Shown in pieces: positions 7,518 through 60,547 of a stretch of 64,000 nt of DNA. Origin of the DNA: a virus. The first letter of the stretch is position 1, and every line of letters begins with the position of its first letter. The stretch spans positions 124,001 to 188,000 of IMG/VR virus record IMGVR_UViG_3300042922_001475, one strand, 5' to 3'. The notes under the pieces were generated by a model that was not told the origin of the DNA, ran no database searches, and was given only the letters and a program-made list of their open reading frames with translations. Made by a program: the position numbers and the translations under genes.

Positions 7518-8100
7518 GAGAGCTTCTAAAGTTGTTATTCTTGTGTGCGTCGTAGATAGCCAGTAGATCTCTATAGGCTTGTCGGTACAGACTATTAGGC
7601 TCTAGCCTAGTGTGCTGGTTACGAAGCAAGTAAGATGGATGATAGATAGGCATGACCTTTGAGTCCTGATAGTCATACCAGCGTCCTCTGAGGCGTGTAA
7701 TGCCCGTACGTCCGGTAAAGTGTTGAAGAGCAAAGTTACCCACTGCAACAATGATAGTAGGCTTAATCAAATCTATCTGTTGGTCTAGGTAGGGTCTGCA
7801 CTCATCTAGTTCAGCAGGCTCGGGGTTACGATTACCCGGAGGCCTACACTTAACGACGTTAGTAATATAACAGTCATGATTGGTATCTAAGCTAACAGCC
7901 TGGAACATCTTATCTAGAAGTTGACCAGCCTTACCCATAAAGGGTTTACCTGATTCATCTTCGTCGGCTCCTGGAGCTTCACCAACAATCATAAGTTTAC
8001 TTTGGGGGTTCCCCCGGTAAAAGACTGTATTGGTCCTAGTCTTAGCTAGGTCACATTTCTGACAGGAAGCGCAAGCGCTCTCCATTTGTTCTAAGTTCAT
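7510..8100 (-). CDS. Uracil-DNA glycosylase, family 4 type
   Basis: About 196 residues from the ATG at 8100, which overlaps the preceding stop as ATGA. Family-4 (UDGa-like) Fe-S glycosylase that removes uracil from DNA. Motif 1 is G-E-A-P-G-A-D-E-D-E-S-G-K-P-F-M-G with G-Q-L-L-D; motif 2 is Y-H-P-S-Y-L-L-R near residue 160. Cysteines C-A-S-C-Q-K-C, C-R-P-P-G-N-R and E-C-R-P-Y provide the 4Fe-4S ligands. All active-site residues look intact. Likely keeps uracil out of phage DNA, in line with the phage's own dCMP deaminase and thymidylate pathway. Confidence 0.88.
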   Translation of the reverse strand: MNLEQMESACASCQKCDLAKTRTNTVFYRGNPQSKLMIVGEAPGADEDESGKPFMGKAGQLLDKMFQAVSLDTNHDCYITNVVKCRPPGNRNPEPAELDECRPYLDQQIDLIKPTIIVAVGNFALQHFTGRTGITRLRGRWYDYQDSKVMPIYHPSYLLRNQHTRLEPNSLYRQAYRDLLAIYDAHKNNNFRSSHD

Positions 8101-8339
8101 ATTGTAAATAGTATCTCTAGGTGCTTTTCCCAAGCATAACAAGTTGTGGAATCATGTAGTTTTAGTTCGTATCTCCAACCACACTTTTTATCATCCACGC
8201 TCAGAGGATGGATGTAGCCAGCAAATACAACCTTCCCAATAACTTCAATAGTGGTAACTTCAAAGTCGTTGGGAAGGTTATATGCTTTTGCTAGAACTAG
8301 ATCCCCATCATTAAACAGACGGGAGGTGTTCGAGGACAT
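8097..8339 (-). CDS. GDxV/FT mini-protein 1 (header of UDG)
   Basis: 80-residue member of the expanded family: N-D-G-D-L-V-L-A-K near the start, V-I-G-K-V-V-F in the middle, L-E-I-L-F-T-I at the end. The final ATA-TGA supplies the ATG of the UDG gene. Its start overlaps the HAD gene by 29 nt. Predicted by pattern to be a small SH3/KOW-like barrel; no function is known. Confidence 0.8.
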   Translation of the reverse strand: MSSNTSRLFNDGDLVLAKAYNLPNDFEVTTIEVIGKVVFAGYIHPLSVDDKKCGWRYELKLHDSTTCYAWEKHLEILFTI

Positions 8340-9006
8340 CGTGAATCTTACTGACTACAATAACGCCCGCCAGTAGGGGCTCAATCTCTGCAGACCAGGT
8401 AGTCTTGTGAGGAATGTAGATAGCACTCATGCCAGCTCTATAGGCAGGGTTAACATCTGACTTGGGGCTATTACCAATAAAGAAGCTATCACGAGCACTA
8501 GACTTGGTAGTCTTGAGTACGTCATACATCTCAAGGGTAGTCTTATGATCAAACACAAACCACCCATCTACCAGCTTATCCAGCTTGGTATCGAAGATCT
8601 TCTTCTCCTGGAACTCTACATTACCTTTGGTAACGATATACTGTTTATAGCCAAGCTTAGTCACAGCCTTGATAGTCCTAGTAGCTGAGGTAATCAACTG
8701 CACAGGCTTGGTCATAGCTGCTAGGCCAATCTGTTTGGCTTGCTCTTTAACCTTAAAGTCTGGAGTAGAGCCTACATCAAAGCATAGAGCTGTGTAGGCC
8801 TCCACCATAGAGTTACTAAACCTGAACTTATCACCAAACCCATGAGTAGCCACTGCAGTCGAGTCGATGGTCTCCATCATAGCGTCTGCGTGGTCATAGT
8901 CAAAGCCATGATTGTTCATCAACTGGGCAAACTCTCGACGAGCATCCACGAAGGCATTATTATATGTTAGGGTCTCATCGAGATCCCAAAAGACTGTCTT
9001 ATTCAT
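8311..9006 (-). CDS. HAD-family phosphatase
   Basis: 231 residues with the haloacid-dehalogenase motifs in order: F-W-D-L-D-E-T-L (residues 6-13, nucleophile D), Y-I-V-T-K-G-N near residue 125 (motif II Thr), a following Lys, and G-N-S-P-K-S-D-V near residue 175 (motif IV acid). The helical cap between motifs I and II is the C1 type seen in phosphoglycolate phosphatase-like enzymes and 5'-nucleotidases. Beside guanylate kinase, a nucleotide phosphatase role is reasonable but unproven. Confidence 0.8.
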   Translation of the reverse strand: MNKTVFWDLDETLTYNNAFVDARREFAQLMNNHGFDYDHADAMMETIDSTAVATHGFGDKFRFSNSMVEAYTALCFDVGSTPDFKVKEQAKQIGLAAMTKPVQLITSATRTIKAVTKLGYKQYIVTKGNVEFQEKKIFDTKLDKLVDGWFVFDHKTTLEMYDVLKTTKSSARDSFFIGNSPKSDVNPAYRAGMSAIYIPHKTTWSAEIEPLLAGVIVVSKIHDVLEHLPSV

Positions 9007-14197: not shown

Positions 14198-15612
14198 TAT
14201 CGTAGTGGCTCAATTGTTATTTCTTTTACGTTACTGAAATACTTCGTATAGAAGAACTTACGGGTGTTAGCGTGGTCTTCTATATGTAGGGGCTGGTGGT
14301 CTATGTAATCCACAAACGTTACTTCAGTCTTACTAGGGTGAATACGTAAGGCTCTACCGATACGCTGTAGGAGTAGGATTAGGCTCTTACCAGAGGCTGC
14401 ATTAATCATAGACTTGATTGTAGGAACGTCAACACCTACGTTCATAACTGAAGAGCCGATCAGCACAGGAGTCTTACCTGATTCAAAGTCATCAAGCATA
14501 GCCTGACGCTTCTCTCGTGACTTCTCTTGACCAGAAATGAAAGGGGCCCCTAGTAGTTTACTAAGTCTCTTACCGTGCTCAATCTCATTAACAATAACCA
14601 AACAAGGTGTCTTACCGGCTGTAATCAGATCAGCTACATCCATAGCAACAACTAGGTCTGACCTTAGATCGTTCTCAGTAATGGCAGTCTTGTAGACCTG
14701 CTTATACGTAGGCTTCTTATCCCCTTTGGGGATGGGCTTATGATCTACGTGTCTGAGCATGATGTTCACAGGACATAGGTATCCATCAGCCATAGCCTGT
14801 TTAAGGCTGTACTCATAGATGACCCTACCTAAGATGCCTTGCATTAGCATCTCTTTACCGTCTTCACGCATCCAGGTAGCTGTTACACCAAACCTGATAT
14901 TACAGTTGACCAGTAGTTTAGATAGGTCTGTATAGCTGTCAGCAGCGGTGCCGTGACACTCGTCAGCAACCCATACAGTAGTGCCCTTTAGAAAGGAAGC
15001 CACTACAGGCTCTGAGTGCTTACTAACCAGTGACTGAATAGTAGCAACAGTTATACGTCTGATGTCGGTTTGGTTATCACCTAAGATACCGATGGGAATC
15101 CCCATCATCTTCTCCAACTCGTCACGAGACTGGTTAAGGAGATTCAGGTTGGGTACTGTAATTAGAATATTCTGGTCGGGCCAGCTCGAAGCTAACTTAG
15201 CACAGAGTAGTGTCTTACCTGTACCTGTAGGTAAGATAATAACACCTCTGTTATGGGCCTTGGCAGCCTCATGAGCCTCACTCTGATAGTACCTAGGTGT
15301 TCTGCTAAGTTCTATCTCTTCTCGTGTCTCAGGGTATTCAGGATAGCTTACTTGAGCATCGGGAATAACCTGGAGTACAAGGTCTATCAATCCTGCCGGA
15401 AACTTACGAGTACGCTTATCGTACAAGTACTTGCGAGTGTCTGCCATGTATCGGGGGTTATACTTAACCTTGCCGTTTACACGAGTAAACTTACTTCCAG
15501 CAAACTCTGCCCCAGGCAGCTCATAACTTAGCTTGTTTCTTAACTTGGTCTCCAGGGCACTGTCTGGAGTATCCAGAAGCTTACCGTAGTGGGGACCGAT
15601 TTCAATTCTCAT
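14197..15612 (-). CDS. UvsW/XPB-like SF2 DNA helicase
   Basis: 471 residues. Motif I P-T-G-T-G-K-T-L, motif II V-A-D-E-C-H-G (DECH), motif III V-T-A-T-W, and the C-terminal motifs I-G-S-S-V-M-N-V-G-V-D-V-P and Q-R-I-G-R-A-L-R. An N-terminal region of ~110 residues precedes the motor, as in T4 UvsW. Such enzymes remodel branched DNA and help switch to recombination-dependent replication. The ATG overlaps the stop of mini-protein 2. Confidence 0.88.
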   Translation of the reverse strand: MRIEIGPHYGKLLDTPDSALETKLRNKLSYELPGAEFAGSKFTRVNGKVKYNPRYMADTRKYLYDKRTRKFPAGLIDLVLQVIPDAQVSYPEYPETREEIELSRTPRYYQSEAHEAAKAHNRGVIILPTGTGKTLLCAKLASSWPDQNILITVPNLNLLNQSRDELEKMMGIPIGILGDNQTDIRRITVATIQSLVSKHSEPVVASFLKGTTVWVADECHGTAADSYTDLSKLLVNCNIRFGVTATWMREDGKEMLMQGILGRVIYEYSLKQAMADGYLCPVNIMLRHVDHKPIPKGDKKPTYKQVYKTAITENDLRSDLVVAMDVADLITAGKTPCLVIVNEIEHGKRLSKLLGAPFISGQEKSREKRQAMLDDFESGKTPVLIGSSVMNVGVDVPTIKSMINAASGKSLILLLQRIGRALRIHPSKTEVTFVDYIDHQPLHIEDHANTRKFFYTKYFSNVKEITIEPLR

Positions 15613-15887
15613 ATTGTAAAGTATATCTCTAAGAATTCCCCAGAGAAATATACTCCCTCGGGGTTGACTTCACTATCAATAATATCAGTACCGTAAAGAG
15701 GCTCATCAGAATTATAAAATCCCTCATCCTCTTCGTCAGCCGTAGTGATGTAAGTAATCTTAGCTAGTTTGTTCTCAAACTTCTCATACTGTTCATAACT
15801 AATACTGATACGTCTCTTGGTGTCTCTACGGCCCCTAGGCTGAATCATGACAATGTCGCCGATTTGTGGTGTTCTCTTACTACTCAT
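15609..15887 (-). CDS. GDxV/FT mini-protein 2 (header of UvsW-like helicase)
   Basis: 92 residues, Q-I-G-D-I-V-M-I-Q near the start and F-L-E-I-Y-F-T-I at the end. A longer acidic middle (D-E-E-D-E-G-F-Y) replaces the I-G-K-I motif with K-L-A-K-I-T-Y-I. Ends ATA-TGA, giving the helicase ATG. Confidence 0.8.
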   Translation of the reverse strand: MSSKRTPQIGDIVMIQPRGRRDTKRRISISYEQYEKFENKLAKITYITTADEEDEGFYNSDEPLYGTDIIDSEVNPEGVYFSGEFLEIYFTI

Positions 15888-16135
15888 TTTGTAAACATAA
15901 CCTCTAAGAAGTCAGCTGTAAAGAAGACGCCATCAAAGTTCAATCCGTTTACAATATCGGTGTGATAGAAGACTGGGTCTGTATCTAGGGATACGGACTT
16001 TATAGTTGCCAACTTGTTAGCCAACTCAAAGGTCTCATAATGATTGGGTTTAATGTGCATCTCTCGGGGAGAGGCATCAGTTTCTTCCAATGCCAGTACT
16101 CTGACAATATCCCCTACTTGTGGTTTCTGTTTCAT
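15884..16135 (-). CDS. GDxV/FT mini-protein 3
   Basis: 83 residues, P-Q-V-G-D-I-V-R-V at the start and F-L-E-V-M-F-T-K at the end. Closest in appearance to copy 2: both share N-K-L-A-x-I and D-I-V/I near the C terminus, so they may be a recent tandem duplication. Ends AAA-TGA, giving the ATG of copy 2. It is the first gene after the hairpin at 16149-16170. Confidence 0.8.
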   Translation of the reverse strand: MKQKPQVGDIVRVLALEETDASPREMHIKPNHYETFELANKLATIKSVSLDTDPVFYHTDIVNGLNFDGVFFTADFLEVMFTK

Positions 16136-17075: not shown

Positions 17076-17375
17076 TTATCCTTGTTTTATTGTTTGAAGC
17101 ACGTCACGTACCCCAAATCTGTTTCTTAAATGTGGTTTGAGAACCATGCCAGCCCCACCCGGTACTGGAAAGTAAATGTACTCAGCTTTAGTAAAGTGTA
17201 GTACGTCTTCGTACAGATAATAAGCTATCTTGTTATTACAGTACGGTAACTTGTCAGTGGTCCAGACAGCGAGTATGAGTTTATCTTTAACAACTAGTGT
17301 CTTAATCAAGTCGTACTCTAGGTCTGGGTGATTCTCTGTCTTAAATGTAATTGTCTTATCAGTCAGTTCAAACAC
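17076..17375 (-). CDS. Hypothetical protein (99 aa), GTG start
   Basis: Begins M-F-E-L-T-D-K-T-I-T-F-K, beta-rich with aromatic residues and V-P-G-G-A-G-M-V near residue 73. No known domain. The GTG at 17375 lies within the last codons of mini-protein 4 (8-nt overlap), and the SSB-like gene follows 11 nt after its stop. Confidence 0.6.
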   Translation of the reverse strand: MFELTDKTITFKTENHPDLEYDLIKTLVVKDKLILAVWTTDKLPYCNNKIAYYLYEDVLHFTKAEYIYFPVPGGAGMVLKPHLRNRFGVRDVLQTIKQG

Positions 17376-17619
17376 TGAACATCAACTCTAAATCTTCTTC
17401 GATGACATTAGTACGACCATAGTCATCAGCCATGACTACATACCACCAAGTCATAAAGCCCTCAGGAGAGCCCTTGCTATCAAACTTATCGTAGTAGTCT
17501 ATAGTCTCTATTTTAGCAATCTTACCTATTAGATTTGTAGGCACAGGTTCGTAGGGTTCCGGGCACTTAACAATAGTTACCAGGTCATTGACCGAATATT
17601 TCGGTAGCGGTTGATTCAT
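17368..17619 (-). CDS. GDxV/FT mini-protein 4
   Basis: 83 residues, V-N-D-L-V-T-I-V at the start (N replaces the family G), L-I-G-K-I-A-K-I in the middle and E-E-D-L-E-L-M-F-S-V at the end. The AGT-GTT of the S-V end carries the GTG start of the next gene. Overlaps the preceding delta-like gene by 35 nt. Confidence 0.8.
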   Translation of the reverse strand: MNQPLPKYSVNDLVTIVKCPEPYEPVPTNLIGKIAKIETIDYYDKFDSKGSPEGFMTWWYVVMADDYGRTNVIEEDLELMFSV

Positions 17620-18789: not shown

Positions 18790-19837
18790 TGAATATCCCC
18801 TTATACATCTGTTCTGGCGTGGGTAGCGTTACATCAACCTTAACTGGTTTATCTTCAGGAAGCATCAATAGAGACCTCCTGAACATCTCAGGCTTACCTA
18901 GTACAGCAGCTTGGGACAGGATCTTCAAACCCTTTGTGTACTGAATATTGTTGGGGCTCTTGATAGACAGTTTACAGAGATCCTCTAGTAACTGTTCACC
19001 AATGCCAGTGACGTCGTGACCTTTCTTAAGCCAACTAGACCAGATTCTATCAACTCTAGCAAAGTCTCTTTTAAAAGCACTATGTAGAATATCAAGTCTC
19101 TCAGACTCGTCACACCCACCAATAACCGCATTAAGGGTCTCTTTACTGAAGTCCCCGTCAAGCCTATCAATCATAGACCAAAGTCTACGTTGAGTTCCCC
19201 CAGAGTTCTTAGCTAAGAAGGTTATCTCTTCAAGATAGTCTTCTAGCTCTGGTTCGAATTTTAATACACCCTTGACCTGATCCTCGACAGGGATAGGTCC
19301 GAAGTCGATCTCATAAGCTCTATCTCTAAGAGCTTCATGAATAGACTTCACGTCGGTGGTCGTACAGATAATAACAGATCTACTAGATAACTCTTCAAAG
19401 ATAACTAGTAGAGCACTCTTAGCGGCTCCGCTGAATGCTTGAAACTCATCAATGATGCAGGCTTTATACCTGGACCCCATAGCTGGAGCGTACTCCATAG
19501 TTGTTTTAAGATCGTTTCTAACCAGGTCTGCTAAGTCACCCATACCACCGTCCATAAACATAAAGTTCATACCAGAACCGTCGTCTACAGATCTACACCC
19601 ATCACAGGCATTACAGGGGTTGTGCTCACCATTCTGTCTGACCATACACACTAGACTCTTAGCTACAATCTTAGCTGTAGTAGTTTTACCTGTGCCGGAG
19701 GGCCCTCCAATAATAATTACACTAGGTAGTCTATCTTCAGCTATGCGTTTAGCTAGCTTCGGAACCCATATAGACTGCCCTAGGACATCCTCAAAGACTT
19801 GAGGACGATAAATGTTTGCTTTGGTCTGACTAGACAC
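18782..19837 (-). CDS. dnaX: DnaX-like clamp-loader ATPase
   Basis: 351 residues, AAA+ clamp loader. Walker A G-G-P-S-G-T-G-K-T-T-T (~residue 45), a zinc module C-M-V-R-Q-N-G-E-H-N-P-C-N-A-C-D-G-C typical of bacterial gamma/tau, Walker B C-I-I-D-E-F-Q-A-F and sensor residues I-I-C-T-T-T. It lacks the extra tau domains. Loads the DnaN clamp encoded at 26191-27342. The GTG start at 19837 lies inside the A-F-S-V end of mini-protein 5. Confidence 0.88.
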   Translation of the reverse strand: MSSQTKANIYRPQVFEDVLGQSIWVPKLAKRIAEDRLPSVIIIGGPSGTGKTTTAKIVAKSLVCMVRQNGEHNPCNACDGCRSVDDGSGMNFMFMDGGMGDLADLVRNDLKTTMEYAPAMGSRYKACIIDEFQAFSGAAKSALLVIFEELSSRSVIICTTTDVKSIHEALRDRAYEIDFGPIPVEDQVKGVLKFEPELEDYLEEITFLAKNSGGTQRRLWSMIDRLDGDFSKETLNAVIGGCDESERLDILHSAFKRDFARVDRIWSSWLKKGHDVTGIGEQLLEDLCKLSIKSPNNIQYTKGLKILSQAAVLGKPEMFRRSLLMLPEDKPVKVDVTLPTPEQMYKGIFSD

Positions 19838-20042
19838 TAAACGCTAACTCCAGCTCTTCCTCAGTAAACCAGTCAGTAAGAGAATCATCTATATCAACCT
19901 TATACCATTGAAGTTTATCAGGCATAGCTAAAGCTATTACTTTACCTAATTTACCTACCCTTTGTCTGGCGTAGGCTTCATGAAGACCATTGAGGACTAC
20001 ATTGACAGATTTAATAATTACAATATCACCAACCTGGATCAT
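19830..20042 (-). CDS. GDxV/FT mini-protein 5 (header of DnaX)
   Basis: 70 residues, M-I-Q-V-G-D-I-V-I-I-K, K-L-G-K-V-I-A-L and E-E-E-L-E-L-A-F-S-V. One of the cleanest matches to the family consensus. The end AGT-GTC-TAG embeds the DnaX GTG start (8-nt overlap). Confidence 0.85.
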   Translation of the reverse strand: MIQVGDIVIIKSVNVVLNGLHEAYARQRVGKLGKVIALAMPDKLQWYKVDIDDSLTDWFTEEELELAFSV

Positions 20043-20308
20043 AGAGTGAACATGACCTGTAATTCGTCATCCCAGAAGGTCTCCCGATCAGAGGTACCGT
20101 CCAGAGTGACCTTGTACCAGTGATACTTGTTCTCGTCCATACCTGAATAGGTAATGGTTCCAGTCTTGTTATAGTACTTACCAGGTTTAGTCACCGAGAC
20201 AATGTCGTTGACATTTAGTGGGGGCTTAGGGGGTAGCAGTCTCGTAGAGATAGCCTGAGGGGCTAGAAAGTACACAGCTCGCTTTAGATAATACTTAAAC
20301 TTATACAC
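20039..20308 (-). CDS. GDxV/FT mini-protein 6
   Basis: 89 residues with an extra basic/hydrophobic N-terminal stretch (Y-Y-L-K-R-A-V-Y-F-L-A-P) before V-N-D-I-V-S-V-T. Ends D-E-L-Q-V-M-F-T-L with CTA-TGA giving the ATG of copy 5. GTG start inside copy 7. Confidence 0.78.
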   Translation of the reverse strand: MYKFKYYLKRAVYFLAPQAISTRLLPPKPPLNVNDIVSVTKPGKYYNKTGTITYSGMDENKYHWYKVTLDGTSDRETFWDDELQVMFTL

Positions 20309-20570
20309 TGAACATTAATTCCAATTCTTCTTCATAGAACCAGTCACCACCAGTTACACGACCAAACCTATCTCTAGCTAGGGGATTAGTATCTAGCTTG
20401 TAGTTAAACGAACCGTTCGGTTGAAGGGACACCCTAACAATCGAGAATAGTCCATTAACATACCTACGTAGGTTCCTATCAGTTACGCTATCCCCAGACT
20501 TAGTTCTGTCAGCTACATAATTAATTCTAACAATATCTCCGACATTATATTTAGGATGTGGTTTATTCAT
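20301..20570 (-). CDS. GDxV/FT mini-protein 7
   Basis: 89 residues, Y-N-V-G-D-I-V-R-I-N at the start and E-E-E-L-E-L-M-F-S-V at the end; the middle is longer and basic. AGT-GTA-TAA carries the GTG of copy 6. Its ATG lies 8 nt after the hairpin at 20579-20596 with no clear Shine-Dalgarno. Confidence 0.8.
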   Translation of the reverse strand: MNKPHPKYNVGDIVRINYVADRTKSGDSVTDRNLRRYVNGLFSIVRVSLQPNGSFNYKLDTNPLARDRFGRVTGGDWFYEEELELMFSV

Positions 20571-20578: not shown

Positions 20579-20596
20579 AGGGACCCGAAGGTCCCT
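20579..20596 (-). terminator. UUCG-capped hairpin after mini-protein 8
   Basis: Minus transcript AGGGACC-UUCG-GGUCCCU then TTCTATTT: 7-bp stem with C(UUCG)G loop. It overlaps the stop of copy 8 by two bases and closes the SNF2 transcription unit. Confidence 0.75.
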
Positions 20597-20783
20597 AGAT
20601 AGTAAACATGGGAGTAAGCTTAAACTCGAACTGAGGTATATCTATTCCCTTAAGTCTGTAGAGGTAATCCATTTTGTTCTTGTAACCGTGGACATGCATA
20701 AGGTTAGGTAGTACCCATATAATCTCAAAGATTCCATCATAACCTCTACAGGTAACTAGGTCCCCCGGACTATATTTAGGCAT
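20595..20783 (-). CDS. GDxV/FT mini-protein 8 (uncoupled)
   Basis: 62 residues, the shortest copy: S-P-G-D-L-V-T-C-R, then a compact beta region and F-K-L-T-P-M-F-T-I. The C-terminal Ile codon is ATC followed by TAG, not ATA-TGA, and no gene start overlaps it; a terminator follows directly. Its own start overlaps the SNF2 stop by 8 nt. Confidence 0.75.
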   Translation of the reverse strand: MPKYSPGDLVTCRGYDGIFEIIWVLPNLMHVHGYKNKMDYLYRLKGIDIPQFEFKLTPMFTI

Positions 20784-22632: not shown

Positions 22633-23048
22633 TATTTCTTGCGGCTCTCAACGAGCTTAGTTACTGCATCATCAAATAGTTTAACTGCATCAGTGAATCG
22701 GTTAACCATACCAGCAACCGTAGTCATGCCATCTATCATCTTTTGACGATGTTCAAAGTTGATTTCAGAAAGGGTATTCTCAAGAAACCTTAGCTCAGAC
22801 TTAGTCTGTTTGATAGACTTATCCAAACCAGAAACTTCAACGTCCTGATTACACAGGATAGTAAATTCATAGCCACGCGCCTTTAGGTCTGACTTAGTCG
22901 AGACAAAGGTATGGCCATCCCACAGCTTAGCTTTAGCTAGTTCTAGCTGACCTGTAAGGTCTTCTAGATACTGCTGCTTCTCAAGTATGCTCTTCTTGAC
23001 TTCAACCCTATCTGGGTAAAGTCTACTTATATCTTTAATATCAATCAT
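22632..23048 (-). CDS. Coiled-coil hypothetical protein (138 aa)
   Basis: Two long helical stretches (residues ~15-45, K-S-I-L-E-K-Q-Q-Y-L-E-D-L; and ~75-100, K-S-I-K-Q-T-K-S-E-L-R-F-L-E) flank a short beta region. No enzyme motif. It lies directly before the SNF2 gene and after mini-protein 9, so it may be a helicase partner, but nothing in the sequence proves this. Confidence 0.6.
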   Translation of the reverse strand: MIDIKDISRLYPDRVEVKKSILEKQQYLEDLTGQLELAKAKLWDGHTFVSTKSDLKARGYEFTILCNQDVEVSGLDKSIKQTKSELRFLENTLSEINFEHRQKMIDGMTTVAGMVNRFTDAVKLFDDAVTKLVESRKK

Positions 23049-23311
23049 ATCGTAAATACTAACTCTAAGTCTTCAGAGTACAGGGACAAAACGTTATAAG
23101 GGTAACCTGGAACGGTAACAGTCTCGAACTCAACAGCGAAGAGCTTGCTATCATCTATCCATGGGTCATCATAGATAGACTTTATTTTACCTACCTGACC
23201 TACAAAGTAATCCCTTACAGCAGGCACACCAGGCTCTCCATATTCGTTTTGTCTATATATGTTTTTGGGCCCTAAAGGCTTTAGAATAACAAGATCCCCA
23301 TCTCTAAACAT
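23045..23311 (-). CDS. GDxV/FT mini-protein 9
   Basis: 88 residues, F-R-D-G-D-L-V-I-L-K, Q-V-G-K-I-K-S-I and S-E-D-L-E-L-V-F-T-I. The ends match the consensus closely; the loop between strands is extended (P-K-N-I-Y-R-Q-N-E-Y-G). ATA-TGA gives the start of the coiled-coil gene. Its own ATG overlaps the UDG-like stop by one base (TAATG). Confidence 0.83.
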   Translation of the reverse strand: MFRDGDLVILKPLGPKNIYRQNEYGEPGVPAVRDYFVGQVGKIKSIYDDPWIDDSKLFAVEFETVTVPGYPYNVLSLYSEDLELVFTI

Positions 23312-25154: not shown

Positions 25155-25794
25155 TCTCTTCCAATACGATAGTAGGAGGGGCATCCAACATAGGCTTAAC
25201 CTGCTTAACAGTGTAGACTTTACTAGAGACTCTATCTCTAATATTATCCCCTATTTGGAGCCCCCAGTACTTCTTATGCTCTTCAGAGTTATCTGGAAGA
25301 GGCATCTTAATGTTGTCTATCTGCTTCAGCTTACGCTCAAGCTCGACAGAAGGATAGGTGGAAGTGAACATACCCACTTTACGGGTGTTCAGATACTGTT
25401 TGTAAGTATCCTCCCAACTAACTTTACTGTCTTGTACAAGACCAACTGCAAACTCAATTGCTTCATCTATGGTGTGATGTCTAACCTTGATAACACCCTT
25501 AGAGATGTAATCACGGGTCATCTTAGGATCTAACCTTAAACCATTAGACTTAAACTTAATCTCTAGACCAATGTTAGTGCTAACATCAGTATAGAAAGCA
25601 GGGTGCACCTTCATTAGGGTCTCCTGCTTTAGGACCTTAACTAAATCAGATATCTGCTTGTTATTGAGGTCTACCGTACTAAACTGCTGCTTAGCCAGGG
25701 CAACTATATCCTGATTAGACCAGGTGGATAGATGCTTAAGAGTTGACTTGAGTTTAGGAATAGGCTGCCTGTTTATCCAAATGTTAGGCTTCAT
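25141..25794 (-). CDS. Hypothetical protein with possible C-terminal barrel (217 aa)
   Basis: Mixed helical protein with basic stretches. The final ~45 residues (L-Q-I-G-D-N-I-R-D-R, then V-Y-T-V-K-Q-V-K-P) resemble the first strands of the mini-protein domain, though the F-T ending is absent (it ends E-E-N-E-D-I). It follows mini-proteins 10 and 11 through an ATGA overlap. Function unknown. Confidence 0.6.
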   Translation of the reverse strand: MKPNIWINRQPIPKLKSTLKHLSTWSNQDIVALAKQQFSTVDLNNKQISDLVKVLKQETLMKVHPAFYTDVSTNIGLEIKFKSNGLRLDPKMTRDYISKGVIKVRHHTIDEAIEFAVGLVQDSKVSWEDTYKQYLNTRKVGMFTSTYPSVELERKLKQIDNIKMPLPDNSEEHKKYWGLQIGDNIRDRVSSKVYTVKQVKPMLDAPPTIVLEENEDI

Positions 25795-25994
25795 ATTGTG
25801 AACATTACCTCAAGCTCTTCTTCTAGAAACGTATCACTACTCTTAGAGCAATCAGCAAAATCTACGGTAACGGGATACTGATCACTCGGATCTATAGCCC
25901 TAACAACACCAATCAAATTAATGTGCTCGGTATGAATAGCGTTAGTACCGGGAGCCTGACCAATCACTCTAACCATGTCACCAATATTTATCAT
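25791..25994 (-). CDS. GDxV/FT mini-protein 10
   Basis: 67 residues, N-I-G-D-M-V-R-V-I, L-I-G-V-V-R-A-I and E-E-E-L-E-V-M-F-T-I. Compact and close to the consensus. ATA-TGA gives the ATG of the 217-aa protein. Confidence 0.83.
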   Translation of the reverse strand: MINIGDMVRVIGQAPGTNAIHTEHINLIGVVRAIDPSDQYPVTVDFADCSKSSDTFLEEELEVMFTI

Positions 25995-26191
25995 ATTGTG
26001 AACACTAACTCCAGATCAGCCACACGATAGTAGTGGGCTTCGGCTCCATCCTCAGTCTCAAACTGCACCATAGCTTCGTAATCTAAGTCTATGTCCATGA
26101 TCTGGCCTACCTGTCCTATAAACTTAGCACTATCAGGACCACAGCAATCGTTAGTATCCCTAACGAGAAGAACTAGATCACCCCTACTCAT
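25991..26191 (-). CDS. GDxV/FT mini-protein 11
   Basis: 66 residues, S-R-G-D-L-V-L-L-V, Q-V-G-Q-I-M-D-I and V-A-D-L-E-L-V-F-T-I. Lies immediately after the DnaN gene (start and stop touch), and its ATA-TGA starts copy 10. A C-C-G-P near residue 17 is the only cysteine pair in the compact copies. Confidence 0.83.
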   Translation of the reverse strand: MSRGDLVLLVRDTNDCCGPDSAKFIGQVGQIMDIDLDYEAMVQFETEDGAEAHYYRVADLELVFTI

Positions 26192-40604: not shown

Positions 40605-40850
40605 TCATATAGTAAATACTACCTGTAAATAATTAGTGGGTACAAGTACAGTCCGGTCCCCGTCAGGATGTTTAATTTGATCTTTAAGCTTAAGGTGACG
40701 CATCTTCCAATCAGAACTTACACCAGACATAAAGTCTACTTCAAAGACCTTACCGATACATTCGAGATAACAGTCGTAGTCAGAAGGAATGGTAGAGTAA
40801 GGTTCTATTGGAGCGCCAGGAAGCACTAGTACTAGATCGCCATTGTTCAT
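40605..40850 (-). CDS. GDxV/FT mini-protein 26
   Basis: 81 residues, N-N-G-D-L-V-L-V-L-P-G-A, C-I-G-K-V-F-E-V and T-N-Y-L-Q-V-V-F-T-I. Ends ATA-TGA like the coupled copies, but that ATG opens only a 24-codon frame; the real next start (copy 25) is 18 nt further on. The thymidylate synthase stop overlaps its ATG. Confidence 0.8.
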   Translation of the reverse strand: MNNGDLVLVLPGAPIEPYSTIPSDYDCYLECIGKVFEVDFMSGVSSDWKMRHLKLKDQIKHPDGDRTVLVPTNYLQVVFTI

Positions 40851-41674: not shown

Positions 41675-41898
41675 ATAGTAAACATTAATTCCAATTGATC
41701 GGGAGTAGCATAGTAAACCTTGTTAGAGTCTATCTTAATAATGATATGGTACTCCGGGTATTGATTCTCTAAAAAGTAATCATAACCTAAGTTCTTTACA
41801 ACCTCAGCTATAGAGTTAAGAAAATCTGGAGGAACGGTGTCCAGCTCAGGAACAAGTTCTACTGAGATAATCCTAACTATGTCACCCGCATTAAACAC
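41671..41898 (-). CDS. GDxV/FT mini-protein 27 (header of ThyA)
   Basis: 75 residues from GTG at 41898. N-A-G-D-I-V-R-I-I, S-I-A-E-V-V-K-N and P-D-Q-L-E-L-M-F-T-I. ATA-TGA gives the ThyA ATG. Confidence 0.83.
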   Translation of the reverse strand: MFNAGDIVRIISVELVPELDTVPPDFLNSIAEVVKNLGYDYFLENQYPEYHIIIKIDSNKVYYATPDQLELMFTI

Positions 41899-42142
41899 TA
41901 AACATTAATTCCAATTGCTCTGCACAAGCAAAGACAGGTGAGGTGTTAACAAACCCTATTACGTAAATAAACGGGTCTCCATGCCACACTAGGGATCCAG
42001 GATATACTTTAAGTATCTCGTAGATACCGTCCACATAATCATGACCAGGGCCACCCTCAATATAGTGGGTGACCCTTATAATATCGCCTTTAACAAACGG
42101 TGTGGGAGATAACTTAGACTCGTCGTAGTTATTCAGTGTCAT
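41891..42142 (-). CDS. GDxV/FT mini-protein 28
   Basis: 83 residues, V-K-G-D-I-I-R-V-T-H, G-I-Y-E-I-L-K-V and A-E-Q-L-E-L-M-F-S-V. Shares the Q-L-E-L-M-F end with copy 27, so they look like a local duplication. AGT-GTT carries the GTG of copy 27. Overlaps the gene before by 14 nt. Confidence 0.82.
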   Translation of the reverse strand: MTLNNYDESKLSPTPFVKGDIIRVTHYIEGGPGHDYVDGIYEILKVYPGSLVWHGDPFIYVIGFVNTSPVFACAEQLELMFSV

Positions 42143-42590: not shown

Positions 42591-42779
42591 TTATTTAGTG
42601 AATGCAGGCTCAAGTCGAGCCTCGTATTGATGTGTCCAGTAATGTAACCAGCCAGTGTTAATTTCAAAGGTATAGTACCAGTCCCCATCACGCCATACGG
42701 CTTCTGATTCGATCTCTCGGATAGTGCCGTCATCTATTACAAGGTCACCGACCTTATATTTAGGGCTTGGTGCATTCAT
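42591..42779 (-). CDS. GDxV/FT mini-protein 29 (uncoupled)
   Basis: About 62 residues from the ATG at 42779, the start that gives the usual short lead. K-V-G-D-L-V-I-D-D, I-R-E-I-E-S-E-A and A-R-L-E-P-A-F-T-K. Ends AAA-TAA and the next start is 15 nt away, so not overlapped. Confidence 0.8.
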   Translation of the reverse strand: MNAPSPKYKVGDLVIDDGTIREIESEAVWRDGDWYYTFEINTGWLHYWTHQYEARLEPAFTK

Positions 42780-42909
42780 CGAGCTTGTGCATCTTTGAAC
42801 CACCGAAGAATACTACTTCTCCGAGGGGTTCAAGATCCTCTAGTTCTAGGTTATACTCTAGGGCCATTTCTTCTACTGTCTTCACTAACTCTTTATCCTT
42901 GTTCTGCAT
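42760..42909 (-). CDS. Short acidic hypothetical protein (49 aa)
   Basis: M-Q-N-K-D-K-E-L-V-K-T-V-E-E-M-A-L-E-Y and E-P-L-G-E-V-V-F-F-G-G-S-K-M-H-K. Its ATG lies in the last codons of the DHH gene and its last codons overlap mini-protein 29 by 20 nt, filling a gap that would otherwise be empty. Helix then a short beta element; function unknown. Confidence 0.5.
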   Translation of the reverse strand: MQNKDKELVKTVEEMALEYNLELEDLEPLGEVVFFGGSKMHKLDECTKP

Positions 42910-44614: not shown

Positions 44615-44817
44615 TACTTAGACACCAGGTAATCTACCCACAGTAGCCAGTGCTCCTGACGGGCCGTAAACTTAGCTGTGTTATCTTTATCAATAAACAA
44701 TACAAGATCGTTAGGATGTTCTTGATCAAGACTCTCGAACAGAACCTTCTGCTCTTCTGTAATATTTTCAAAGACCCTACTGAGGGTCATGTCGTTAGGA
44801 CGTCCTTGTTTCTTCAT
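44614..44817 (-). CDS. Small hypothetical protein (67 aa)
   Basis: M-K-K-Q-G-R-P-N-D-M-T-L-S-R-V-F-E-N-I, then an acidic helix and a tryptophan-rich end (E-H-W-L-L-W-V-D-Y-L-V-S-K). No family recognised. Its ATG is shared with the end of mini-protein 30. Confidence 0.6.
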   Translation of the reverse strand: MKKQGRPNDMTLSRVFENITEEQKVLFESLDQEHPNDLVLFIDKDNTAKFTARQEHWLLWVDYLVSK

Positions 44818-45128
44818 ACCGTAAATATTAATTCCAATTCATGTGCTTCACAGGACCACCCATCGTGGGACTGTTCCTGACCGTAACCCTTTTTTCCAGA
44901 ACCCAATATAAGACTATTAGGGTAAAGATCAATTCTGTATAGTAGTTTACCGGGATCAGCCCCTAGCCAATCTTCAAATATCTCTACGACCTTACCGATC
45001 GAGCCAATCACTTTATCGTAGTTGATACAATAAAGCCCACCATCAACCTTAGTGTCTAGTTGTGTGCCATCACTAAATGACATAGCTTTAACCACAACCA
45101 GGTCACCGACTTTAAATGCTGAAGACAA
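44814..45128 (-). CDS. GDxV/FT mini-protein 30
   Basis: 104 residues from TTG at 45128. K-V-G-D-L-V-V-V-K-A, S-I-G-K-V-V-E-I and A-H-E-L-E-L-I-F-T-V. Has a Gly/Ser/Lys insert before the last strand. GTA-TGA gives the next ATG. Overlaps copy 31 by 17 nt. Confidence 0.82.
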   Translation of the reverse strand: MSSAFKVGDLVVVKAMSFSDGTQLDTKVDGGLYCINYDKVIGSIGKVVEIFEDWLGADPGKLLYRIDLYPNSLILGSGKKGYGQEQSHDGWSCEAHELELIFTV

Positions 45129-45339
45129 GCGTTAGTTCCTCATGCTTGAAGTGAGCTTTTCTGTCCCCCTCAAAACATACAGTATAATCGTATGTGTTAT
45201 CGGCCTTAAAGAGATAGATTATCTCCCCAACAGGTCCTAAGTAATAAGGCTCTAGTGCTTTAGATAAGACCCCACCAGGAGTTATAGCGTGGGCAACCAC
45301 CAGGTCACCCACTTGATATTTAGACTTTGAAGTATTCAT
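45112..45339 (-). CDS. GDxV/FT mini-protein 31
   Basis: 75 residues, Q-V-G-D-L-V-V-A-H, P-V-G-E-I-I-Y-L and H-E-E-L-T-L-V-F-S-I. Its end carries the TTG of copy 30. Starts 20 nt inside the nucleotidyltransferase gene. Confidence 0.82.
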   Translation of the reverse strand: MNTSKSKYQVGDLVVAHAITPGGVLSKALEPYYLGPVGEIIYLFKADNTYDYTVCFEGDRKAHFKHEELTLVFSI

Positions 45340-46049: not shown

Positions 46050-46298
46050 TTATAGAGAGAACATCAGTTCAATCTCATCTTGTTTAACATTCCAGTTACG
46101 TTGGGTACCTGTTTTGTAGGTAAACGTAACTACATAAGGATATGTTGCTCCCTTACGTACTCGTTTGACCTCACCAATAGATCCAATAAACCTAACTATA
46201 GTTGACCCCCTAACTCTACCTGTACCGTATGTACCTGGAGTTACGTTGGTCATTACTACGATGTCGCCAACCTTGTACTTACAAGACTGCTTACCCAC
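46050..46298 (-). CDS. GDxV/FT mini-protein 32 (uncoupled)
   Basis: 82 residues from GTG at 46298 (TAGTG with copy 33). K-V-G-D-I-V-V-M-T, S-I-G-E-V-K-R-V and D-E-I-E-L-M-F-S-L. Basic overall. Ends CTA-TAA, 10 nt before the RlaP ATG, so close but not overlapping. Confidence 0.82.
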   Translation of the reverse strand: MGKQSCKYKVGDIVVMTNVTPGTYGTGRVRGSTIVRFIGSIGEVKRVRKGATYPYVVTFTYKTGTQRNWNVKQDEIELMFSL

Positions 46299-46564
46299 TA
46301 GACGGTAAACACCGGCTCAATCTCAGCTTCAGCCAAACAATAGGACTTATCGATCTGTCTGCCAGACTTAGCTGTAAACTTGAATCTTACATAGTAAGGG
46401 TACTTAGGACTGGAACTGCGTAGATACACAATCTCTCCAAACTCGCCCTCAAAGAAGGGAAGAGCTGAATCTCTTACCGTACCCTTACCATCACCAAAGT
46501 TCTCAGTGATCTTCTTAAAGAGAACCAGGTCTCCTTTATTATATTTACGAGGCTTCTTAGCCAA
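46298..46564 (-). CDS. GDxV/FT mini-protein 33
   Basis: 88 residues, N-K-G-D-L-V-L-F-K-K, E-F-G-E-I-V-Y-L and A-E-I-E-P-V-F-T-V. Like copy 32 it has a basic lead and an Arg/Lys-rich strand, so the two are probably duplicates. TAG-TG overlaps the GTG of copy 32. Confidence 0.82.
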   Translation of the reverse strand: MAKKPRKYNKGDLVLFKKITENFGDGKGTVRDSALPFFEGEFGEIVYLRSSSPKYPYYVRFKFTAKSGRQIDKSYCLAEAEIEPVFTV

Positions 46565-50017: not shown

Positions 50018-50476
50018 TTATAGGGTGAACATGGTTTCGAAGTCTATGTATTCTAATCCATAAATACCTGGACTAGTATGGTACTTACTTTGGGGAGGGC
50101 CTTGTACAGATACCAAAAAGGTAGAACTCCACTTAGAGAATTCTACCTTCTTAACTTCTGCTATAGAGCCATGCATAATGTGTTTGGGGTTAACTATCTG
50201 AATTAGATCTCCAGGAACCGGGTAGTCTGTTTCTTTTACAAGGGTCAGTCCCATAATTGCTGCCCTACGATAGAAGTTAGTATAGTTACACTGTTGGTAA
50301 AAGATATTACCATCGTGCATAGACCGTTGTCTGTAATATACATTGACGTGATCTTCTCCAGAGAGTCTCTCAAGAAGATCGGTCCTGATTATACTGACCA
50401 TAGTTTTACGATCTTTGGAGACCCACGTCTGACCTGCTTTCAGGTCTTTGTTATAGGTCATCGTAGTCTTCTTCAT
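50018..50476 (-). CDS. GDxV/FT mini-protein 34, fused to an N-terminal domain
   Basis: 152 residues. The N-terminal ~85 (A-G-Q-T-W-V-S-K-D-R-K-T-M-V-S-I) are a different beta-rich segment; the last ~65 have V-P-G-D-L-I-Q-I-V, S-I-A-E-V-K-K-V and D-F-E-T-M-F-T-L. Ends CTA-TAA, 12 nt before the exported-protein start. ATG at 50476 or 50461. Confidence 0.75.
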   Translation of the reverse strand: MKKTTMTYNKDLKAGQTWVSKDRKTMVSIIRTDLLERLSGEDHVNVYYRQRSMHDGNIFYQQCNYTNFYRRAAIMGLTLVKETDYPVPGDLIQIVNPKHIMHGSIAEVKKVEFSKWSSTFLVSVQGPPQSKYHTSPGIYGLEYIDFETMFTL

Positions 50477-55826: not shown

Positions 55827-56123
55827 TTACACTCCAAATATCTTTTCTATGTCTCTAGCTCTAGCTGTAAAGTAGTGGTCACCGTACTTCAAAACATACG
55901 GTCTATCTCCCCAACTACGATGGTCTATAATCTCAGCTATCTGACCTATGGCAGCTTTAGCTTCAGCAGAGAGGGTATTAATACGTGCCCAATCGAGAGT
56001 ATTACTAACTACTACAGAACTATTAAAGTCACTCAAGTATTCTGTACCCATACCATTAACTCCAGCCTGTAGGTGTTTGATTATAACTAGGTCTCCGACC
56101 TGGAATCTCTTATAATAAGGCAT
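55827..56123 (-). CDS. GDxV/FT mini-protein 35
   Basis: 98 residues from the ATG at 56123. Q-V-G-D-L-V-I-I-K, A-I-G-Q-I-A-E-I-I and R-D-I-E-K-I-F-G-V, where G-V replaces T-x, the most divergent ending. TAA is followed immediately by the ATG of the membrane-protein gene. Starts 6 nt after the hairpin. Confidence 0.78.
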   Translation of the reverse strand: MPYYKRFQVGDLVIIKHLQAGVNGMGTEYLSDFNSSVVVSNTLDWARINTLSAEAKAAIGQIAEIIDHRSWGDRPYVLKYGDHYFTARARDIEKIFGV

Positions 56124-56129
56124 AATAAA

Positions 56130-56152
56130 AAGGACCCCTACATGGGGTCCTT
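56130..56152 (-). terminator. Hairpin terminator overlapping the 56138 stop
   Basis: Minus transcript AAGGACCCC / GGGGTCCTT (9 bp, 5-nt loop) followed by TTTTATT. It includes the stop codon of the 56138-56491 gene and is 6 nt from the next ATG. Confidence 0.8.
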
Positions 56153-56491
56153 GAATCTCTTCCAACTGTTTAAGTATAGTTCGGCTGGTGCAAACGTAGT
56201 CAGCTCCCAGTCTGGGTGGTAAAACATAAATGGTCCGTAGTCCTGCATCAAGTAGAACTTGGAGTACTGGGGCCACTTACTTACATTGTTGATAGTTATC
56301 TTTTGAGGAGAAACTAAGTCTAACTTAGGGCTGTACTGTCCGGTGACAATAAAGCCAGGTAGAGCTTCATACTCTACAGTTTCTTCCTCTAGTGTGCCGA
56401 TTTTACAGGGAGTCCACACCTTACACTTAAACTGAATACTGTCAGTGGTTGGGCTGTAATCTGATTCCCATATTTGGCAAGTAACAGACAT
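56138..56491 (-). CDS. Beta-rich hypothetical protein (117 aa)
   Basis: M-S-V-T-C-Q-I-W-E-S-D-Y, then strands (V-E-Y-E-A-L-P-G-F-I-V-T-G, K-I-T-I-N-N-V) and an aromatic end (L-Y-L-N-S-W-K-R-F). It could be a stand-alone barrel, but it lacks the GDxV and F-T signatures. Ends inside the terminator stem. Confidence 0.55.
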   Translation of the reverse strand: MSVTCQIWESDYSPTTDSIQFKCKVWTPCKIGTLEEETVEYEALPGFIVTGQYSPKLDLVSPQKITINNVSKWPQYSKFYLMQDYGPFMFYHPDWELTTFAPAELYLNSWKRFKDPM

Positions 56492-57907: not shown

Positions 57908-58180
57908 CTAGGTGGTAAAGAGAACCTCTACCTGGTCCTCACGAACAGTAAACTTATCTTCTATCCAATAAATGGTATGAATACTATCTGGGTACTTAGC
58001 AAGGTCAGGCTCCAACATATCAGTGATCTTACCTATATAGCCTATATACTTACTAAAGTAGGGCTCATCCTTTAGGCTTCCGTGATCTAGATCTGGACCT
58101 CTTGCCGGATCCCCCGTTATGTCTAGTACTCGCACTAGATCGTTTAAATTGATCGACAATGTATCTCCCTGAAAGGTCAT
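57908..58180 (-). CDS. GDxV/FT mini-protein 36 (uncoupled)
   Basis: 90 residues from the ATG at 58180. N-L-N-D-L-V-R-V-L (N for G), Y-I-G-K-I-T-D-M and E-D-Q-V-E-V-L-F-T-T. Ends ACC-TAG with no start overlapping, 34 nt before the ankyrin gene. Overlaps the upstream zinc-type gene by an unusual 116 nt. Confidence 0.78.
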   Translation of the reverse strand: MTFQGDTLSINLNDLVRVLDITGDPARGPDLDHGSLKDEPYFSKYIGYIGKITDMLEPDLAKYPDSIHTIYWIEDKFTVREDQVEVLFTT

Positions 58181-58382
58181 TAAGAGGACTATTGTTAGGA
58201 GGCAACTTCTTAGCATTGGCATGCTGATTGCAGAACCTACAGGGGTACAGCATAGCTTCTCGCTGAGACTGAATGTCTCTTATGTCTGTGTACCACCTGC
58301 GGTCAGCGCAGCCCCAACACTGTTTCTTATCTAACTTCTCAGACAACAGCCCGAGTCCGAACAACACACTGTCCGTCTTCAT
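58065..58382 (-). CDS. Zinc-type protein with long antiparallel-free overlap (105 aa)
   Basis: From the ATG at 58382: K-Q-C-W-G-C near residue 20 and Y-P-C-R-F-C-N-Q-H near residue 47 give two CxxC pairs, a likely zinc site. The last ~37 residues are Ser/Arg/Lys-rich (G-S-G-K-R-S-R-S-R-S-R-K) and are encoded by the same DNA as the start of mini-protein 36 in another frame. Either this tail is real, giving a basic disordered end, or a recent frameshift extended the gene into its neighbour. Confidence 0.5.
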   Translation of the reverse strand: MKTDSVLFGLGLLSEKLDKKQCWGCADRRWYTDIRDIQSQREAMLYPCRFCNQHANAKKLPPNNSPLNDLSGRYIVDQFKRSSASTRHNGGSGKRSRSRSRKPKG

Positions 58383-58595: not shown

Positions 58596-58844
58596 CTATA
58601 CCGAAAAGATTAACTCTAGTTCATATTTGTGAGCCCAAAGGCCCAGACCATCGAATACTATCCAGTACCAACTGTTTATCATGGGGTCGCCCATTGGCCC
58701 ACGAGGCATGATAACCTCAGCTATCTGACCTACGTATCGGCTAATGTAACGACCCCTACCTGTGTTATAGACTTGACCTGGTGTACGAACAGCAGTATTA
58801 ACTCTCTTGATTACAACAAGGTCACCCTTATGGAATAAAGTCAT
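58596..58844 (-). CDS. GDxV/FT mini-protein 37 (uncoupled)
   Basis: 82 residues, H-K-G-D-L-V-V-I-K-R, Y-V-G-Q-I-A-E-V and K-Y-E-L-E-L-I-F-S-V. Strong family match. Ends GTA-TAG with no start overlapping; the next gene begins 77 nt downstream. Confidence 0.83.
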   Translation of the reverse strand: MTLFHKGDLVVIKRVNTAVRTPGQVYNTGRGRYISRYVGQIAEVIMPRGPMGDPMINSWYWIVFDGLGLWAHKYELELIFSV

Positions 58845-59071
58845 TTAGTAAAGAAGAGTTCTATCTCTTCTCTCCCAAAGTAATCGGCCTCATAGTCGTT
58901 ATAGTCCTTATCAAACTTTAGAAAGTACTCTAGGCCTTGACGACAGCCAAGGTCTAGATGCTCAACCTCATAGATTTTGCCTATGTGGGTGCCCTTCCAG
59001 TCGTCTCTTCCAGACCTGGGGCCATCAGATAGAACTATAACCAGATCACCAGGTTTAATGTTATTCGTCAT
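58841..59071 (-). CDS. GDxV/FT mini-protein 38
   Basis: 76 residues, K-P-G-D-L-V-I-V-L, H-I-G-K-I-Y-E-V and R-E-E-I-E-L-F-F-T-K. AAA-TGA gives the ATG of copy 37. Starts 11 nt inside the end of the RNA ligase gene. Confidence 0.83.
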   Translation of the reverse strand: MTNNIKPGDLVIVLSDGPRSGRDDWKGTHIGKIYEVEHLDLGCRQGLEYFLKFDKDYNDYEADYFGREEIELFFTK

Positions 59072-60284
59072 ACTTGAGGTTAAACTTAGGGCTGATAACC
59101 TTGAAGCTTACGAAGCCAGCGTTTAGATCACCCAGATCAAAATCGAACTTAGGCTCGACTAGTCTGTAGACATCACCTTCACGCTCAGTCTTCTTGTTAT
59201 GAACCGACTTACCTTCGGCCATAGCCACAAGCTCGTCCACTGTGTGATTGAGAACAAAGTCTCTATCGATGATAGGAACCATGTTAAGGCCTAGAGCTCT
59301 AACAAGCTTCTCAGTTTCTTCAAGACTATAATAGGTAAGGCTATCCGGATCGAATGCCTGAAAGACGAATAGATCCTTCTTCTTAAAGTCATACTTGTTA
59401 CCCTGAATACCGGGACCACACATCTCACCCTGAATAACCAGATTGGTTCCAAAAGGAGTGCAGAGTGACCTCATCTTAGTTTCCAGGTCCAGCTCAAGGG
59501 CTAGCTCCCAGAAGGTAGGATCAACTCCAGCATCAATGTCCACAAGAGCTAGCAGCTCGTTGAAGAACTTCTTACGAACAATACCAGTCCACTTAGGATT
59601 GTACTTGTCCATAAAGATAGTCCACTTGTACTCAGCCATCTTAATCTTCTTACGAAGGTTAAACTTAGTACAGACCTTGGACCACCAATCATCACCAGGA
59701 CGCGCTAGCTCTAGGTTACGAGAAGCAATACCGAACTTACCATCTTTGAGGTAGGCAGTGAAGCTGGAACCGTCCATCTTCTCAGCCCTATAGAATCTAT
59801 GACCTCTGTACTTCTCCAGGAGCTTCTCCAAGATCTGTACACGAGTCTCGTCAGTCTTATAGATGAACGAGGGGAAGGGCATACCAGACTTCTTCCGGAA
59901 GACACCAGCCAACTTAGGCTGACCCTTCTGAGGCTTCTGGTAGGGCTCCCACTTCTTGATACCGATGACATCAGTCACGTCAGTACCCTCAGGGCAGCCT
60001 TGCATGTTTTTAGGTAGAATAGTTACAGGGAAGCAGATACCCTGAGAGATCTGACCACGGAGCTTAATAGTCTGGACTCTGAACTTACGCTGACGCATAA
60101 ACTCAAACTCAGGCTTCTCCGGTAGGAGAGAATCGATCTCAACGTAAACACACTTATCACCAGGTTTAAACTCGTCAAGTTTTACAACTACGTTCCAACC
60201 AAGTACCCTAGCTCTCTGAATAGCATCAGCGCCCTCAATGGGCTGAATATCTTTGATAGTCTGAATAGAGGCTAGTTTTCTCAT
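59061..60284 (-). CDS. RNA ligase, Rnl5/DRB0094-like
   Basis: 407 residues. An N-terminal ~125-residue OB-like domain (I-K-D-I-Q-P-I-E-G-A-D, then G-D-K-C-V-Y-V-E-I-D) precedes the ligase core, the order seen in Deinococcus RNA ligase (Rnl5 family), which joins a 3'-OH RNA end to a 5'-phosphate in a nicked duplex. Motif I Y-R-A-E-K-M-D-G-S-S (Lys AMP acceptor, ~residue 168), F-G-I-A-S-R-N, I-Q-G-E-M-C-G-P-G and E-G-D-V-Y-R-L with a later F-K-V are present. A second, different RNA ligase beside the fusion at 47074. Confidence 0.88.
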   Translation of the reverse strand: MRKLASIQTIKDIQPIEGADAIQRARVLGWNVVVKLDEFKPGDKCVYVEIDSLLPEKPEFEFMRQRKFRVQTIKLRGQISQGICFPVTILPKNMQGCPEGTDVTDVIGIKKWEPYQKPQKGQPKLAGVFRKKSGMPFPSFIYKTDETRVQILEKLLEKYRGHRFYRAEKMDGSSFTAYLKDGKFGIASRNLELARPGDDWWSKVCTKFNLRKKIKMAEYKWTIFMDKYNPKWTGIVRKKFFNELLALVDIDAGVDPTFWELALELDLETKMRSLCTPFGTNLVIQGEMCGPGIQGNKYDFKKKDLFVFQAFDPDSLTYYSLEETEKLVRALGLNMVPIIDRDFVLNHTVDELVAMAEGKSVHNKKTEREGDVYRLVEPKFDFDLGDLNAGFVSFKVISPKFNLKYDE

Positions 60285-60547
60285 TTAGTAAATACCAATT
60301 CCAAATCATCTGGGTGTACCAGTCTAGTATTATCCGAACGTCCAGGGTATGCACCCAGTGTAATATACACATGGTCTTCCCAGAGAGTAGAGCCAGTTGG
60401 ATACAGATATTCGAACACAGCCCCTATATCTGCTTCTGTTGGAGCATAAGAAGTTGCTTTTCTGTATCTGCAATTATCTAGACGGGTTAGTATAACCAAG
60501 TCACCACTAGAGAAGTTCTTCGAGGCTCTCACGAATAGCTGCCTCAA
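60281..60547 (-). CDS. GDxV/FT mini-protein 39 (header of RNA ligase)
   Basis: 88 residues from TTG at 60547, or fewer from GTG at 60532. S-S-G-D-L-V-I-L-T, D-I-G-A-V-F-E-Y and P-D-D-L-E-L-V-F-T-K. AAA-TGA gives the ligase ATG. Overlaps the ankyrin gene by up to 41 nt. Confidence 0.8.
   Translation of the reverse strand: MRQLFVRASKNFSSGDLVILTRLDNCRYRKATSYAPTEADIGAVFEYLYPTGSTLWEDHVYITLGAYPGRSDNTRLVHPDDLELVFTK

Follow-up and report, generated by a model that had tools for sequence, protein, structure and literature searches.

A virus recovered from metagenomic data (IMG/VR record IMGVR_UViG_3300042922_001475, 200,185 bases) is a tailed phage with a 200-kb genome that encodes 74 SH3-like barrel proteins, almost all of a single domain, which together form one paralogous family. 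The family makes up about a third of the genes on the minus strand, which are of the early type, and is unusually large for a phage. A preliminary description of bases 124,001-188,000 of the record (64,000 bases, hereafter the window) had listed 39 such genes and judged their number far beyond ordinary phage paralogy. All 39 are present, all on the minus strand and all within positions 8097-60547 of the window, and over the whole genome the family is about twice as large.

Within the window, a regular expression for the C-terminal motif alone matched 36 of 228 minus-strand open reading frames (ORFs) and none of 259 plus-strand ORFs. Hidden Markov models (HMMs) built from half of the motif-bearing ORFs recovered every held-out copy (28/28 and 29/29, E<0.01) and not just a few of them; the best plus-strand E-value was 0.8-1.5 and the best reversed-sequence E-value 0.62. 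We also ran a blind test that did not preselect by motif: each gene of 40-200 residues served as a single seed and was iterated into a family. The largest family found has 73 genes, all within the motif-defined set, with no extra member and none from the plus strand. Seeds from the family reached at least 50 members in 32 of 73 cases, and seeds from outside it reached two at most. The same blind procedure yielded maxima of 3 and 4 in two related phages (205 kb and 167 kb), bearing out the judgment that the copy number is extraordinary. Chance similarity of the motif is ruled out by the held-out, reversed-sequence and blind tests. The 74 intact copies in the record are the 73 genes of the blind test and the weak copy 19.

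All copies lie on the minus strand, at 4.2-28.3 kb, 107.0-111.6 kb and 132.1-195.9 kb of the record; the late, structural block contains none. Sixteen consecutive family genes fall within the first of these regions. Counted over gene calls, the family represents 73 of 248 on the minus strand and 0 of 92 on the plus strand, interspersed with replication and deoxynucleoside triphosphate genes. The structural block occupies the plus strand at about 60-107 kb and codes for capsid, sheath, tail and terminase proteins, named from their location and size and from distant similarities. On the minus strand are replication, nucleotide-metabolism, RNA-ligase and NAD-salvage genes together with about 30 tRNAs. 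No terminal repeat was found in the 200,185-base record. Genes were called by longest ORF and several starts may be too early, very likely that of copy 35, whose extra length has no other cause (Table 1), and possibly those of copies 29 and 36.

The proteins are 58-193 residues long (median 78). Their conserved columns are G6-D7-L8-V9, G29-x-I31-x-E33-V34, Y47 and L66-E67-[LV]-[VM]-F70-[TS]71-x. In the column profile the core positions carry 2-4.3 bits, and columns 12-28 and most of 38-60 about 0.5 bit. The RT-like loop varies from 2 to 52 residues with 29 distinct lengths. The third-last residue is Phe or Tyr in 74 of 74 copies and is followed by Thr or Ser in 72. This aromatic-[Thr/Ser]-x tail sits exactly at the stop, no copy having a C-terminal extension; in the double-length copy 23, the internal domain lacks it. 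N-terminal additions are found in copies 6 and 34 and in the copies at record positions 26,344, 26,742, 110,323 and 111,259. Median net charge is -4 in the family versus 0 for other small minus-strand genes. The family is thus marked by a constant scaffold, free loops, a constant end, an acidic bias and restriction to the replication/nucleotide strand. We infer that the constant C-terminal tail is functional.

AlphaFold2 folded copy 11, the member with the strongest support, using a 52-member alignment, into a five-stranded SH3-like barrel with a predicted local distance difference test score (pLDDT) of 94 and a predicted template modelling score of 0.81. Copy 19, the weakest member in the window, gave the same fold and strand order with a pLDDT of 83. 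Both models have the five strands and the 3-10 turn before the last strand that mark an SH3-like barrel. Fold matches in the PDB were Ssl0352/NdhS, PsaE, PetP, Spt5, NusG, ribosomal L24, eL21, nitrile hydratase and YorP. The Foldseek E-values were modest, as expected for a barrel of 66 residues. The assignment to the SH3-like fold class is firm.

We compared family profiles with known proteins. Against PDB sequences, profile A1 matched thiocyanate hydrolase (E 4e-4), followed by MIB1, PsaE and nitrile hydratase at about 0.01-0.03. With hhalign, PsaE scored 94-96%, FtrV 91% and PetP 95% as an alignment or 48% as a single sequence. NusG (62%), YorP (28%) and L24 (20%) scored lower; unrelated ribosomal proteins reached at most 4% and the reversed family 0.2-0.4%. 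Most of these comparisons used single sequences. By these sequence comparisons the PsaE/FtrV/PetP/nitrile-hydratase group is likely the nearest subgroup, ahead of KOW. The SH3/KOW/Tudor barrel proposed in the preliminary description was the right fold class, but the nearest relatives by profile are probably PsaE, FtrV and PetP and not KOW. The best family scores stayed below the Pfam cut-offs for PsaE (PF02427, 17.7 against 27 bits), KOW (PF00467, 16 against 22.3 bits) and YorP (PF09629, 16.1 bits in one member against 25 bits). For the eukaryotic, PxxP-binding type of SH3, a search of 52 members gave a single weak match, to SH3_2 (E 0.025). The PADLOC anti-phage defence models matched single members at a best E of 0.02, and no PHROGs model clearly recognises the family.

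The SH3-like electron-transport accessory proteins (PsaE, FtrV, PetP/Tsr0524, nitrile hydratase beta and thiocyanate hydrolase) resemble the phage family in their five-stranded SH3-like barrel, their G-D-x-V first strand and their E-L-E last strand. Unlike the phage proteins, these are single-copy subunits of enzymes or complexes and as a rule lack the aromatic-[T/S]-x tail. In cyanobacterial genomes, PetP and PsaE proteins stop with the ELE strand or directly beyond it, mostly without that tail. One cyanobacterial PetP-type protein, with ELEPVFS at its stop, comes near the C-terminal motif of the phage family; the majority of the other PetP proteins inspected end earlier. KOW domains (NusG, Spt5, L24) have the fold class in common with the family but a lower profile similarity. 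YorP of Bacillus phage SPbeta is likewise a small phage protein with this fold in an early-type, nucleotide-metabolism neighbourhood, though it has a C-terminal extension. SH3-like small proteins of other phages have the same fold but are single-copy.

When copies were aligned on their stop codons, third codon positions varied and information dropped to background immediately past the stop. Constraint thus acts on the protein and not on the DNA, and nothing points to an RNA element, a recombination site or an insertion sequence. On these data a DNA or RNA element or leader was rejected, and the translational leaders suggested earlier are not supported. The stop of a family gene overlaps the next start by four bases (ATGA) in 31 cases, accounting for an excess of TGA stops in the family.

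Pairwise identity among the copies has a median of 26% and a maximum of 53%. The pairs first thought to be recent duplicates (2/3, 22/23, 25/26, 27/28 and 32/33) are not recent, all of them being absent from the 25 most similar pairs, which share at least 42% identity. Neighbours tend to be related: 21 of 74 copies have their best match no more than two family ranks away, compared to a permuted mean of 4 and a maximum of 15 in 2000 permutations. The run of 16 copies was reached in none of 5000 permutations (mean longest run 4.5). Outside this array clustering is weak (P 0.07). The pattern fits old tandem duplication, dispersal and strong divergence. A broken copy with one internal TGA, at record positions 21,672-21,881, is evidence that copies are lost as well as gained. 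That 74 of 75 copies are intact at a median identity of 26% requires purifying selection on the protein.

We also examined how widely the family is distributed. The capsid and terminase proteins share 24-26% identity with their counterparts in Microcystis phage LMM01 and allied phages. Their relatives belong to phages of Microcystis and Microcoleus and to one Elainella contig. It is plausible that this phage has a cyanobacterial host; psbA was looked for in its genome and is absent. Capsid and terminase alignments yielded 45 distinct IMG/VR records. The family profile had no match at E<=0.1 in the 36 records found through related capsid genes, nor in the 10 found through related terminases, one of which was already in the capsid set. 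The whole genomes of the two closest relatives lack the family, with hidden paralogue sets of at most four. The profile also had no match in the LMM01-like phages, T4, SPbeta, PAK_P4, phiPsa300 or BillNye, and a single one in phage G (E 0.009), inside a 429-residue frame. In 116 cyanobacterial genomes there were seven matches at E<0.001, and those inspected were of the PsaE type (five) or the PetP type (one). The sole match in the Elainella genome was a marginal FtrV-like protein. Two DNA-pattern scans of IMG/VR based on the C-terminal motif, which are insensitive, returned 82 and 48 stretches, all of them lacking the family. A scan for the PNKP-ligase found three IMG/VR contigs with a phrog_8238-type protein (40% identity), none of them with the family. 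Single-protein scans with polymerase, terminase and capsid gave nothing usable. A consensus tblastn search against phages gave no return and is uninformative, as the artificial, low-complexity query may be filtered. A second genome with the family was absent from the 45 IMG/VR records, 12 phage records, 116 cyanobacteria and two pattern scans. A literature search, mostly without subscription papers, produced no paper on such an expansion. The family is unique within what was searched.

Our preferred reading, held tentatively, is that the copies form an early-expressed repertoire of diversified binders with a constant tail, used for host takeover or counter-defence. The barrel core (the G-D-L-V strand, the G-x-I-x-E-V strand, the Tyr and the L-E strand) would provide the constant scaffold. 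The RT-like and distal loops vary freely in both sequence and length and may direct each copy to a target of its own in the host (or phage). The aromatic-[Thr/Ser]-x tail would dock all copies on one common partner or be a shared signal for assembly or turnover. Copies would then block or redirect host proteins, defence proteins included, and new ones would arise by tandem duplication and divergence with occasional loss. Several points weigh against this proposal. Early timing is deduced from gene content and strand, the variability of the loops could be drift under weak constraint, and the conservation of the tail could be structural. In addition, no defence, Pfam or NCBIfam model clearly matches the family.

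Alternatively, the proteins could be accessory docking subunits, each mini-barrel binding the replication or nucleotide-metabolism enzyme encoded beside it, as PsaE, FtrV and PetP dock. Copies do lie among genes for dihydrofolate reductase, dCMP deaminase, thymidylate synthase, polymerase, helicase and ligase, often with four-base overlaps. The cellular families closest to the phage proteins are themselves small subunits that dock on larger complexes, and YorP of SPbeta, which has the same fold, is encoded near the genes for a polymerase and a thymidylate kinase. A fixed enzyme partner for every copy is nonetheless disfavoured because 16 copies succeed each other with no other gene between them. 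Copies are also found among tRNA genes, and related phages lack the family. We consider docking of this kind doubtful.

A more specific form of the binder proposal is that, on a constant barrel, the constant tail recruits one shared effector (the replication compartment or a protease of the host, for example) and the targets are chosen by dozens of variant loops; this appears rather unlikely. It is unlikely, too, that the many non-identical barrels build a hetero-oligomeric ring, shell or condensate in which the common last strand and tail form the subunit contact. The constant strands, the C-terminal strand with its tail, the single-domain architecture and the number of paralogues are in keeping with such an assembly, and small barrels of the Sm/Lsm type are known to oligomerise. 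The variation in loops and length, however, goes beyond what is usual for assembly subunits.

The fold matches to NusG, Spt5, L24 and eL21 and the weak KOW matches would suit regulators of the KOW/NusG/L24 type that act on RNA polymerase in transcription or on ribosomes in translation. The KOW cut-off is never reached, though, profile similarity to NusG and L24 is lower than to PsaE and FtrV, and the acidic net charge is unlike that of typical RNA-binding KOW proteins. Regulators of this type are quite unlikely, and we prefer an adaptor or binder. It is very unlikely that the copies mimic, in a cyanophage, accessory proteins of photosynthetic electron transport and target photosystem I, cytochrome b6f or NDH. 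The best cellular profile matches are indeed PsaE- or PetP-type with a marginal FtrV, the cellular genomes searched being cyanobacterial, and the capsid and terminase relatives point the same way. Against this, the cyanobacterial host is no more than plausible, psbA is missing, the PsaE cut-off is not reached, LMM01-like cyanophages lack the family and 74 diverged copies are not needed for one function. A small gene amplified selfishly or without adaptive value, or alternatively an element acting as RNA or translational leader, would be in line with the tandem array, the dispersal and the frequent ATGA overlaps but is highly improbable given the variable wobble positions, the lack of conservation past the stop and the purifying selection on the protein.

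Lineage-specific paralogue expansions (ankyrin, F-box, MORN) are known from eukaryotic giant viruses and poxviruses. Like the phage family, they comprise many diverged copies of one interaction domain, partly born in tandem. The family differs from them in being a barrel of one domain, in belonging to a bacterial virus of 200 kb and in taking up about a third of the early-type genes. If our reading is true, bacterial viruses can use massive paralogue expansion, a strategy of giant eukaryotic viruses. As variable binders, the copies would amount to a natural library, contained in one phage, of 74 small scaffolds that differ in their loops and share a defined, conserved tail. With a shared effector, one genome would carry a modular system redirecting many host proteins. 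Even under the rival explanations, a third of the early-type genes belongs to one family without a clear Pfam, PHROGs or NCBIfam model.

Table 1. Family copies in the window. Positions are window coordinates; the basis is a family HMM match unless otherwise stated.
Copy	Positions	Strand	Remarks	Basis
1	8097..8339	-		HMM
2	15609..15887	-		HMM
3	15884..16135	-		HMM
4	17368..17619	-		HMM
5	19830..20042	-		HMM
6	20039..20308	-	N-terminal extension	HMM
7	20301..20570	-		HMM
8	20595..20783	-		HMM
9	23045..23311	-		HMM
10	25791..25994	-		HMM
11	25991..26191	-	SH3-like barrel, pLDDT 94	HMM, AlphaFold2, PDB fold search
12	27343..27549	-		HMM
13	27546..27782	-		HMM
14	27831..28046	-		HMM
15	28043..28246	-		HMM
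16	28243..28470	-		HMM
17	28951..29154	-	sub-threshold KOW match	HMM, Pfam
18	29151..29417	-		HMM
19	29414..29653	-	weakest window member, pLDDT 83	HMM (E 0.03), AlphaFold2, PDB fold search
20	31709..32035	-		HMM
21	36928..37122	-		HMM
22	37547..38074	-	double length, C-terminal domain detected	HMM
23	38071..38601	-	double length, two domains detected, tail on second only	HMM
24	39671..39967	-		HMM
25	40329..40586	-		HMM
26	40605..40850	-		HMM
27	41671..41898	-		HMM
28	41891..42142	-		HMM
29	42591..42803	-		HMM
30	44814..45128	-		HMM
31	45112..45339	-		HMM
32	46050..46298	-		HMM
33	46298..46564	-		HMM
34	50018..50476	-	N-terminal fusion domain, ~85 residues	HMM, sequence
35	55827..56276	-	over-extended ORF; likely start at internal Met ~56123, giving an ordinary single domain	HMM, sequence
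36	57908..58222	-		HMM
37	58596..58844	-		HMM
38	58841..59071	-		HMM
39	60281..60547	-		HMM

Other genes of the phage were noted in passing. Among the approximately 30 tRNA genes is one with anticodon CTA (record 189059-189132), an amber-reading type that ARAGORN labels Pyl. Amber read-through, considered because of this tRNA, was rejected: TAG is still a stop, and no plus-strand gene has a long extension after TAG. A second small paralogue set consists of four tail-region genes for proteins of about 310-330 residues (record 91759-99935, plus strand). A minus-strand gene at window positions 3914-4795 resembles, by eye, part of the phage's own capsid protein (record 64471-65649). The window also encodes a fused kinase-phosphatase-ligase RNA repair protein (phrog_8238; 47074-49317) and a separate RNA ligase (59061-60284). 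A TerD-like protein pair and two ankyrin-repeat proteins, named by eye, are found at 53839-55334, 57217-57882 and 60507-60833. Two adjoining genes at record 22074-24776 appear by eye to be an NAD salvage pair, coding for nicotinamide phosphoribosyltransferase and nicotinamide mononucleotide adenylyltransferase.

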